64,000 nucleotides of DNA, from positions 2,108,001-2,172,000 of the forward strand of contig NZ_BCNW01000001.1 in NCBI RefSeq assembly GCF_001571385.1, in the 5' to 3' direction. This stretch comes from Methanofollis ethanolicus (GTDB lineage Archaea > Halobacteriota > Methanomicrobia > Methanomicrobiales > Methanofollaceae). Of the stretch, positions 19,814-21,980 are shown one piece after another; the first letter of the stretch is position 1; each line of letters starts with the position of its first letter. The translations under genes were made by a program, and so were the position numbers. The notes under the pieces are model-generated. The model was not told the DNA's origin. It was given only the letters and a program-made list of their open reading frames with translations, and ran no database searches.

Positions 19814-19906
19814 TTGGATAGGGGGAGACAGGGATCTCCTCCCAACAGTTCGAGCGCGATTTTTTTGTTTCATCCACACCCGCGGGACGTTTCGAAAACG
19901 CTATAT

Positions 19907-19928
19907 GGTGCAAAAATATATTTGCACC
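19907..19928. promoter_or_regulatory. Perfect 22-bp palindromic operator over the promoter
   Basis: GGTGCAAA-N6-TTTGCACC is a perfect inverted repeat whose A/T-rich spacer (AATATA) is itself the likely TATA region, ending 5 nt before the ATG of the downstream HTH gene. An operator here would block transcription factor binding or polymerase, so autorepression is likely. A related half-site TTTGCAC occurs at 21296-21302. Confidence 0.65.
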
Positions 19929-19933
19929 TGTAA

Positions 19934-20233
19934 ATGATTACAACCAGTAGCATCCCCGAGCTCTCGAAATTGCTTTCATTTCTCGGAAATGAACAAAGGC
20001 TCAGGATTCTGAAATCGATTGCAAAAGAGGAGAAATATGCGCGCGAGATCTCGGAAGAACTCTCAATCTCACGTACACTTGTCAACATCTACCTCAAACA
20101 GCTGGAGAAGAAGGGCCTCGTCACCGGAACCAGCAGAGTGACGGACGAACCCCCCCTGATGAGGAGATATTACCGGGCAGTTCCCTTCGAACTGGTTGTA
20201 AGCCTGGATGAGATTCAAAAAATGGAGGAGTAA
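19934..20233 (+). CDS. ArsR-type winged-helix transcriptional regulator
   Basis: A 99-residue regulator with a winged helix-turn-helix: LSFLGNEQRLRILKSIAKEE, then the recognition region EISEELSISRTLVNIYLKQLEKKGLV and a beta wing around RVTDEPPLMRRYYRAV. No cysteine cluster for metal sensing is present, so the inducer is unlikely to be arsenic-like metal. Its ATG lies directly behind a perfect palindrome that overlaps the promoter. It is followed after 4 nt by two membrane-anchored coiled-coil proteins that it probably controls together with itself. Confidence 0.82.
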   Translation: MITTSSIPELSKLLSFLGNEQRLRILKSIAKEEKYAREISEELSISRTLVNIYLKQLEKKGLVTGTSRVTDEPPLMRRYYRAVPFELVVSLDEIQKMEE

Positions 20234-20237
20234 AGGT

Positions 20238-20597
20238 ATGGATTATTTTAAGGTACGCGAATTTCACTGGATGACCTGGACGGTGATCGGACTCCTGATA
20301 GCGTTGCTCGTCATGCTCACCATCGGCATTGCCTATCGTATCGACCTCGGTATTGTCGTCGGTTCCATGGCAGGGATATTGTGGTATGTCTTCCTGCTCG
20401 CCTTCATCTGGACCGTGGCCTGCATCATTGGAAGGGGCCTGAAGACCTGGCTGGAAAAGTACCTCGACGCTCTCGTGGAGCAGAAGAGCAGGGAAGAGGA
20501 CGCCGGTGCACAACTGGCCGTATTGAACGAAAAGATCGAGAAGATGGAAGAGAAGATCGACCGGATCGAGGATGTCCTGACGAAGGTGGGCGAGTAG
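20238..20597 (+). CDS. Two-TM protein with C-terminal coiled coil (paralogue 1)
   Basis: A 119-residue protein of unknown function. It has two membrane segments (about residues 14-35 and 42-65) followed by an amphipathic tail rich in charged heptads (LNEKIEKMEEKIDRIEDVL) that should form a coiled coil in the cytoplasm. The next gene encodes a paralogue with the same architecture and the same ending (KKVDRIEAMLVKV). It starts at ATG 20238 behind GGAGGAG that overlaps the end of the regulator gene, so the three genes form one operon. Confidence 0.72.
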   Translation: MDYFKVREFHWMTWTVIGLLIALLVMLTIGIAYRIDLGIVVGSMAGILWYVFLLAFIWTVACIIGRGLKTWLEKYLDALVEQKSREEDAGAQLAVLNEKIEKMEEKIDRIEDVLTKVGE

Positions 20598-20602
20598 GAG
20601 GA

Positions 20603-20959
20603 ATGTCCATGGACCCTGAAAAAAATCTTGACAGGGACTGGACCCTCTGGACGGCGGTCGCGATCACGGTGTGGTTGGTCCTGAGCATCCTCGTATCTCT
20701 GGCAAACCCCGTCTTCGCACGTTCGATCTGGCCGGTGTTGTTCTCCGTCTTCGTCCTCGCATATGGGTACCTTGCCGTCTGCCATTTCATACGCAAGGCG
20801 AAGGCGTGGAGCGAGCACTATCTCGACACCCTCCTGGCACAGCGTGTCCGGGGAAAGGAGAGAGAGGCAGAGAAGATACGAGCAATGACCGAACAGGTCG
20901 GGGAAATGGAGAAAAAGGTGGACCGCATCGAGGCGATGCTGGTGAAGGTCTCCGGGTGA
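20603..20959 (+). CDS. Two-TM protein with C-terminal coiled coil (paralogue 2)
   Basis: A 118-residue paralogue of the preceding gene: two membrane segments (about 15-35 and 41-62), a conserved K-x-W-x-E-x-Y-L-D-x-L-L segment that matches K-T-W-L-E-K-Y-L-D-A-L in the neighbour, and a coiled-coil tail. Both proteins may pair with each other through the tails. The first ATG (20603) lies only two bases after AGGAGG; the second in-frame ATG at 20609 has better spacing. No family is recognised. Confidence 0.7.
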   Translation: MSMDPEKNLDRDWTLWTAVAITVWLVLSILVSLANPVFARSIWPVLFSVFVLAYGYLAVCHFIRKAKAWSEHYLDTLLAQRVRGKEREAEKIRAMTEQVGEMEKKVDRIEAMLVKVSG

Positions 20960-21404
20960 TGATGCACGATCTCTGAGAGTCATTGACAGGAACCTCTCAC
21001 TTTTCCTTGATCCGAAAAACATTGGAGATCGTACGGCATCACAGAACGTTACAAAAAATTCATAGAGAATATTTTCTGGAAACTCATCTTCCTAGAGCGT
21101 GCATGACGGCCAGGCGAGCGATCCCATCGCTAAAAGTCAGGATTTTCTCGAACATTTGCCTTCAGCAGGACATCCGGATCACTACACTCGTGAGTGACTC
21201 ATAGACAGATCTATCGGGCGGGACTGATCGGTCGCAAAGTTTTGCAGGATTATTACATCGATACAGAGGGTTAAATTTTTCCGATGTGTAAATGATTTGC
21301 ACAGAGCAGCCATATAATTGTATGAATATATCCTGGGTCGTGGACATCAGAACAGGTGTCCCGCCGGGGCCGGGGACACGGCCCGGAGGAGAAGAGGAAA
21401 CAAA
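20960..21404. promoter_or_regulatory. Gap with operator-like site, two TATA boxes and a leader hairpin
   Basis: No gene is supported in this 445-nt stretch. An imperfect palindrome GTGTAAA-TGA-TTTGCAC lies at 21286-21302 and shares its right half with the operator at 19907-19928. TATA-like boxes occur at about 21310-21320 and 21324-21333. A hairpin with arms 21356-21362 and 21373-21379 (GTGTCCC/GGGACAC) sits in the leader just before the GGAGGAGAAGAGGA ribosome binding site of the lipoprotein gene. Confidence 0.45.
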
Positions 21405-21980
21405 ATGAGGAATGGTGCATGTATGGTTACAGAAAAAAGATTTCTCACTCTTTTGCTCTCTTTCGTCCTGCTGGGATGTGCCATTCTCACGACGGGGTGC
21501 ACGGCAGGGGAAGGGCCGGGAGCGCCGACGCCTGTCCTGACGCCCCCCACGTTCCAGCCCGACATCCTGGACAAACCGATCATCAACGCACCCGCTGGAG
21601 AGGGAGGGCCGTCTCCTTTCCTCTTCGAGTTCGACACGGAGAACGCCTCGGGTTTCGAAGCGGTCGGGGCCGATCGACCGGGAGCGCCGACACTCGTCCT
21701 CCGACCGAATGCATCGGCGACCCTCCCGATCGTCGTCTCCTCCGAGGCCGACACCGGCACCGGGATCAGGACCACCCGGACCGACGGCCTGCCTGAAGGA
21801 GTGCAGGTCTCCTATGTCCCGGACTCCTTCACCCTTGAGGCCGGGGAGACGAGACGCGTGGAGATGCGTCTGGTCTCACCGGAGGACCTGACCGTGCCGG
21901 CGGCGACGGCCGTCGTCGTCTGGATGGAGGGTGCGGGATGGGAGGTCGGGAGGGGTTTCCACCTCGGAGAGAGGGAATGA
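21405..21980 (+). CDS. Secreted lipoprotein of unknown function
   Basis: A 191-residue exported protein. The N-terminus has a positively charged start, a hydrophobic core (LLLSFVLLGCAILTTGC) and a lipobox ending in TTGC, so it is probably lipid-anchored outside the membrane. After a proline-rich linker the mature part reads as one beta-sandwich-like domain with alternating hydrophobic strands (for example LPEGVQVSYVPDSFTLEAGETRRVEM), reminiscent of bacterial-type Ig or NEW3-like folds. The ATG at 21405 has GAGGA upstream. The shared half-operator suggests possible co-regulation with the ArsR-type operon. Confidence 0.65.
   Translation: MRNGACMVTEKRFLTLLLSFVLLGCAILTTGCTAGEGPGAPTPVLTPPTFQPDILDKPIINAPAGEGGPSPFLFEFDTENASGFEAVGADRPGAPTLVLRPNASATLPIVVSSEADTGTGIRTTRTDGLPEGVQVSYVPDSFTLEAGETRRVEMRLVSPEDLTVPAATAVVVWMEGAGWEVGRGFHLGERE

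Follow-up and report, generated by a model that had tools for sequence, protein, structure and literature searches.

A putative autorepressed cassette pairing an ArsR-type regulator with membrane coiled-coil proteins in Methanofollis ethanolicus and its relatives

The stretch of Methanofollis ethanolicus DNA analysed here (64,000 bp, hereafter the window) carries a small cassette consisting of a putative operator, a gene for an ArsR-type winged-helix regulator and two genes for paralogous membrane proteins, P2 and P3, with a predicted coiled-coil tail. Comparison of the sequences suggests, at what we consider a little under an even chance, that the cassette is a self-contained membrane-to-DNA switch in which an autorepressor would be controlled by its membrane-anchored partner. 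This reading is supported by an operator fixed in 31 loci and private to one promoter in 17 genomes, and by the presence of a membrane coiled-coil neighbour at 31 of 36 distantly related regulators compared to 0 of 19 other helix-turn-helix (HTH) regulators.

Little is known about how archaea pass signals across the membrane, and two-component systems are unevenly distributed among them. The recurring pairing in methanogens, other archaea and some bacteria suggests, as far as sequences can tell, a little-noticed form of membrane-to-DNA signalling. If this is true, a compact and widespread pair of a repressor and a membrane-anchored tail would offer another way of linking the membrane to a promoter, and genes now annotated merely as “winged helix-turn-helix” and “hypothetical protein” would acquire a function. 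The precise operator, the candidate contact surface and the natural variants (one to four partners, tail-only and bacterial forms) make the system directly testable in hosts that are easy to handle.

Regulator gene and its putative operator

The putative operator is an inverted repeat, GGTGCAAA-AATATA-TTTGCACC, located at 19907..19928. It abuts the TATA-like element CTATAT (19901..19906, plus strand), a presumed promoter element read from the sequence, and fills the space from there toward the start codon, ending 5 bp before the ATG. In many relatives, the operator is directly preceded by TTTATC or an element resembling it. The initial annotation described a perfect 22-bp palindrome covering the promoter; the position and the 8-bp arms, which are exact, proved correct, but only 10 of the 11 pairs are complementary, pair 9/14 being an A/A mismatch.

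Among inverted repeats generally, this one is just modestly surprising and is weak evidence when taken by itself, so its status as an operator rests on conservation. Nor was the matter decided by scoring individual promoters for arm symmetry relative to shuffles, with some relatives’ sites pairing no better than the shuffles. In 31 loci from two archaeal orders, with 28 distinct sequences among them, the site is kept at the same place, immediately before the regulator start. Pairs 3-20 and 4-19 are invariant across these loci, and three pairs covary beyond column composition, namely 1-22 (T-A or G-C, shuffle P 0.006), 5-18 (T-A or C-G, P 0.0005) and 11-12 (P < 0.0005), these P values being optimistic as the shuffles ignore relatedness.

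At 0-3 mismatches, there is one operator site in the window versus 0.06 expected. The exact site occurs once in the organism’s own genome (2.71 Mb), which contains no second N6 site within 0-1 mismatches of the degenerate pattern, and the pattern search in 17 cassette-bearing relatives returned the site once per genome, plus two one-mismatch, non-palindromic extras overall. Since the operator occurs effectively once per genome, regulation looks strictly local, with the site apparently private to its own promoter. The autoregulated operon suggested by the initial annotation agrees, at the level of sequence, with an operator that is conserved, covarying and restricted to the regulator promoter.

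The regulator gene (19934..20233, plus strand) codes for a 99-aa protein with an ArsR-type (HTH_5) winged helix. The protein scores 40.4 bits with Pfam HTH_5 (E=2.8e-10, cutoff 22 bits) which, together with the Foldseek match to ArsR-type structures, places it in the ArsR/SmtB superfamily and bears out its earlier description as a small winged-helix gene of ArsR type. None of the curated subfamily models reaches its cutoff with this protein. The AlphaFold model is a winged helix (pLDDT 84), and the nearest solved structure found by Foldseek is 2p4w, Phr of Pyrococcus, with 34% identity over 73 columns. Cys and His are both absent from the sequence, for which reason metal sensing was rejected, and the metalloregulator model NF033788 gives 35 bits against a cutoff of 55. 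The predicted recognition helix region comprises residues 46-59 (SRTLVNIYLKQLEK; 20069..20110, plus strand), with a helix at 47-59 in the AlphaFold model. Thr48 is found just in the three core loci with TGC instead of TGT in the operator, while the other core loci have Pro; as these three loci make up one clade, the match counts as a single event, suggestive but not a statistic. Judging by these sequence features, the regulator is a probable autorepressor.

The initial annotation also proposed a small regulon including the lipoprotein gene at 21405, ahead of which the half-site TTTGCAC is indeed present (21296-21302), this heptamer occurring seven times in the window versus 2.85 expected. The palindrome TGTGTAAA-TGA-TTTGCACA, located at 21285-21303 upstream of a TATA-like element, has arms resembling those of the operator, which are 3 bp apart versus 6 bp in the operator, and no other site in the genome fully matches its N3 pattern, a pattern derived from this very site. 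It is absent from the upstream regions of the lipoprotein homologues in relatives. These homologues are located far from the cassette in two genomes (G003 and G006) and are present in four cassette-less ones (G008, G009, G010 and G014). With the homologues elsewhere, no palindrome upstream of them and no second N6 site, a common half-site and a different, unconserved palindrome spacing, the regulon was rejected, and the lipoprotein is not part of the module.

Membrane partners and the cassette in archaea

P2 (20238..20597, plus strand, 119 aa) and P3 (20603..20959, plus strand, 118 aa, alternative start 20609) follow the regulator gene with spacings of 4 and 5 bp, the gene order in the window being mutS, mutL, regulator, P2, P3. 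The P2 query finds P3 with E=2.1e-14 and 32% identity, which indicates paralogues, and the AlphaFold model of P2 is a helical hairpin with helices at 4-32 and 37-118, the second one running to the C-terminus; two paralogous membrane coiled-coil proteins had been recognized by the initial annotation as well. Model confidence is moderate (pLDDT 72, pTM 0.34), and the modelling covered P2 of the two paralogues. Both proteins are predicted to consist of a two-helix membrane hairpin and a C-terminal coiled-coil tail in the cytoplasm. They have no family in Pfam, NCBIfam, PADLOC or PDB sequences, with just sub-threshold matches of coiled-coil or membrane type.

The conserved cytoplasmic tail comprises residues 95-119 of P2 (20520..20594, plus strand), ending KIDRIEDVLTKVGE, and the aligned part of P3 (20882..20956, plus strand), ending KVDRIEAMLVKVSG. 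Its C-terminal motif KxDxIExILxKVSE is a constant of the cassette, alongside the operator and the regulator. Mean pairwise identity is 0.45 in the last 25 residues compared to 0.22-0.24 in the membrane helices, and the juxtamembrane stretch 67-80 also reaches 0.45. Relative to the Methanoculleus copies, dN/dS is lowest for the regulator (about 0.10), intermediate for P2 (0.24-0.37) and highest for P3 (0.44-0.57), values which put all three genes under constraint.

The cassette is present in five of the 12 Methanofollis genomes searched, the window’s own included, as well as in Methanoculleus, other Methanomicrobiales and Methanoperedens. In each of the 31 core loci, the regulator is adjoined by one or more membrane coiled-coil genes. 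The number of such genes varies from one to four, usually being one in Methanoculleus, two in Methanofollis and up to four in Methanoperedens; what is conserved of the trio is thus the pairing, the trio itself being the Methanofollis form only. In some families, the last cassette gene codes for a 68-71-aa paralogue, which is a tail without the membrane segment. Orphan tail-only coiled-coil genes (68 aa) were also observed at L165 (2368-2574, minus strand) and L166 (2281-2487, plus strand), and no regulator of this type was found in the genomes with such genes (G012 and G037).

Regulator identity is 60-76% between clades and 91% to the nearest Methanoculleus copies. Methanoculleus chikugoensis carries two cassettes, its own one-gene form and a window-like one (91% regulator identity). 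Homology of the window-like Methanoculleus cassette to the window ends at the cassette borders and the window-like copies are grouped in the regulator tree (support 86/76), which makes horizontal transfer of the whole cassette likely, as judged from sequence. The flanking genes vary by clade, with no fixed functional neighbourhood hinting at a substrate, and since the transfer into Methanoculleus was limited to the cassette, the latter appears to work as a unit.

In two Methanoculleus genomes (L049 and L050), the window-like cassette is located just before genes coding for an ABC transporter ATPase and an ABC-2-type permease, and in L050 (by eye also in L049) there is a stub upstream of the cassette matching the start of that ATPase, as if the insertion had duplicated the gene’s start. 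In another Methanoculleus locus (L070, genome G039), a transposase-like ORF lies between the regulator and the membrane gene, splitting the pair. In two Methanoperedens loci (L052 and L054), the tail-bearing genes are followed on the same strand by two small genes, one for a multi-helix membrane protein and one for a lipoprotein. Three other Methanofollis genomes (L167, L168 and L169) have a second, weakly similar membrane coiled-coil protein of 110-138 aa encoded outside the cassette.

Distant relatives in archaea and bacteria

More distant regulators were gathered with the regulator profile, and 36 loci were examined for a same-strand gene adjoining the regulator and coding for a small membrane protein whose tail is charged and bears heptads. 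Such a neighbour was found at 31 of them, compared to 0 of 19 other HTH regulators from the same order, 0 of 81 long genes in the Methanomicrobiales loci and three of 32 long genes in the distant loci. The five regulators with no such neighbour all belong to family f10, and in two loci of this family (L177 and L178) the regulator is followed by a gene coding for a seven-helix membrane protein resembling an ABC-2-type permease. The partner gene is located upstream of the regulator in family f8 and part of f9 and downstream in the other families. In f8, which is probably Methanosarcinaceae, the pair is kept at every regulator locus examined, in many genomes. Gene order and the number of membrane helices vary, and the pairing of regulator and membrane protein persists.

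In bacteria, with the spread known here from plasmid records, plasmid-borne relatives of the regulator were found in Streptomyces, Niallia, Peribacillus, Paenisporosarcina and Exiguobacterium, where the gene following that of the regulator codes for a membrane protein with one helix and an IEKLLKEVE-type motif at its end. The range was thus understated by the initial annotation, which had looked to other Methanomicrobiales, as other archaeal families and bacteria also carry the pair. The C-terminal pattern, written after seeing both groups, is present in all seven partners from bacteria, in 19 of the 20 from archaea and in one unrelated ORF in a background of about 4,500, the other 21 background matches being cassette members. 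By profile score, the similarity between the bacterial and archaeal tails is weak, and shared descent of the partners is plausible on the sequences, though not proven. In the Bacillota promoters, TGTAATAAAATTATTACA or a close variant was seen by eye over the -10 region and near the start codon, and three f9 promoters contain GGTAAA-N6-TTTACC or a close variant (also by eye); by the same visual comparison, both resemble the archaeal TGTAAA-N6-TTTACA geometry.

It is conceivable, although we lean against it, that the cassette and these pairs belong to a class of transmembrane one-component switches which spans both domains and has so far escaped recognition, and in which an HTH_5 autorepressor would be controlled by a small membrane protein via the conserved C-terminal coiled-coil motif. 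On sequence grounds, such a class would include several archaeal families, Bacillota and Actinomycetota and would share an operator geometry of roughly TGTAA-N8-TTACA at its own promoter.

Proposed mechanism, alternatives and known systems

An established example of a repressor controlled from the membrane is SdpI of Bacillus subtilis, which sequesters the autorepressor SdpR at the membrane (PMC1626106). In the mechanism proposed here, a regulator dimer would bind the inverted repeat that separates the TATA-like element from the start codon, thereby repressing its own operon, a step that we infer strongly from conservation and covariation. With no other target evident, the output would be the operon itself, that is, the regulator and the membrane coiled-coil proteins. 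P2 and P3 would be anchored by the hairpin, holding the tail in the cytoplasm, where it may be the surface on which the regulator docks. Once the membrane part detects a signal, or the proteins simply accumulate, the regulator would be held at the membrane, as in SdpI/SdpR, and the operator would be freed, allowing the cell to match the amount of membrane protein to need. The likeliest guess for the role of the membrane proteins beyond this loop is membrane homeostasis.

A role of the tail as the contact is consistent with its being more conserved than the membrane helices and with the tail-only paralogues in some cassettes. Counting against the proposed switch are the orphan tail-only genes in genomes without the regulator, which suggest that the tail may have other partners, the ease with which coiled coils are conserved for self-assembly alone, and the five f10 regulators without such a neighbour.

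The main rival, which we judge unlikely, is a conventional one-component repressor sensing a small molecule or a physical change, with the membrane proteins as mere effectors (e.g. membrane stabilisers) and the tail serving for oligomerisation or binding other partners. This would be classical ArsR-type logic, and autoregulated repressors with a single target are a common type; Phr, the closest relative of known structure, represses promoters by binding over the transcription start (PMC6316755), and constraint is stronger on the regulator than on the membrane genes (dN/dS 0.10 versus 0.24-0.57). However, the protein has no Cys or His with which to sense metals or thiols, its 99 aa leave little room for a ligand domain, and variable membrane segments with a conserved tail beside this regulator, but not beside other HTH proteins, would be left unaccounted for.

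A toxin-antitoxin-like or immunity cassette, in which the regulator would repress its own gene as an antitoxin or immunity regulator while P2 and P3 would be toxic or confer immunity, would match a small autoregulated operon that is patchy (five of 12 genus members), transferred as a unit and plasmid-borne in bacteria, and the layout, with the regulator as first-gene product and a putative palindromic operator, would fit type II toxin-antitoxin anatomy. We consider it improbable, as the genes match no toxin family in Pfam, NCBIfam or PADLOC, the four-copy tandem expansion and the tail-only paralogues are atypical, and the pair in f8, kept at every locus examined, looks vertical. A phage-defence or superinfection-exclusion module is very improbable: SieB similarity is very weak (12.6 bits for P2 and 13.4 for P3, cutoff 26) and a Hachiman gene is located close to one bacterial plasmid pair, but PADLOC gives nothing for P2 and sub-threshold noise for P3, the window neighbours are mutS, mutL and genes of housekeeping type, and no relative was found in viral contigs, for which reason a viral origin was rejected too. 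It is hardly credible that the inverted repeat arose as a palindrome by chance or acts as an RNA element, for although eight-base arms alone are not rare over 64 kb and the arms pair no better than shuffles in some relatives, TG...CA at a constant spacing is kept with covariation in 28 distinct sequences (shuffle P 0.006 to <0.0005), at a site essentially unique in each genome.

As regards described systems for control of a regulator from the membrane, the small membrane proteins PspB and PspC have a coiled coil in the cytoplasm and relay the membrane state to a transcription factor. P2 and P3 share this general build but score only 11.8 and 12.6 bits with PspC (cutoff 104) and 11 bits with PspB (cutoff 90), and neither PspA nor PspF was identified at the cassette locus. 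CsmR of Haloferax (no ArsR link), MreA of Methanosarcina (a 139-aa TrmB-family protein) and HdrR of Methanosarcina (no ArsR link or membrane partner in the available part of its description) were rejected as described relatives. The initial impression that the module seems undescribed fits our literature search, which covered few subscription papers.

According to the available part of PMC6316755, Phr of Pyrococcus furiosus is an archaeal ArsR-type heat-shock repressor acting over the transcription start and controlling many genes, with no membrane partner described there. It has the closest solved fold to the regulator (2p4w), but its C-terminal domain is missing in the latter, which matches the Phr model NF053602 in the winged-helix part only (32.5 bits, cutoff 320).

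Like SdpR-SdpI, the cassette joins a small ArsR-type regulator, here a probable autorepressor, to a membrane protein within one operon. Unlike SdpR, the regulator scores 22.3 bits with NF033789 (cutoff 100), and unlike the polytopic SdpI, P2 and P3 combine a pair of hydrophobic helices with a coiled coil and do not match the SdpI family; no gene for an SdpC-like toxin was identified near the cassette. The best reading is that the cassette is SdpR-SdpI-like in logic and outside that family, sequestration being suggested here by analogy. HAAS-PadR, a conserved pair of a stand-alone winged HTH protein and an alpha-helical membrane-linked signalling protein, was proposed as an alternative to two-component systems in PMC11237479, the text of which does not mention ArsR. 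The pairing of a winged HTH gene with an alpha-helical membrane protein is common to both, but the regulator is of HTH_5/ArsR type (PF03551, 16.8 bits, cutoff 27), the P2 model has two helices and no three-helix domain, and GxP is absent from the cytoplasmic part of P2 and P3. As the proteins lack the sequence characteristics of either family, the cassette is classed as working like SdpR-SdpI and HAAS-PadR and not as a member of them.
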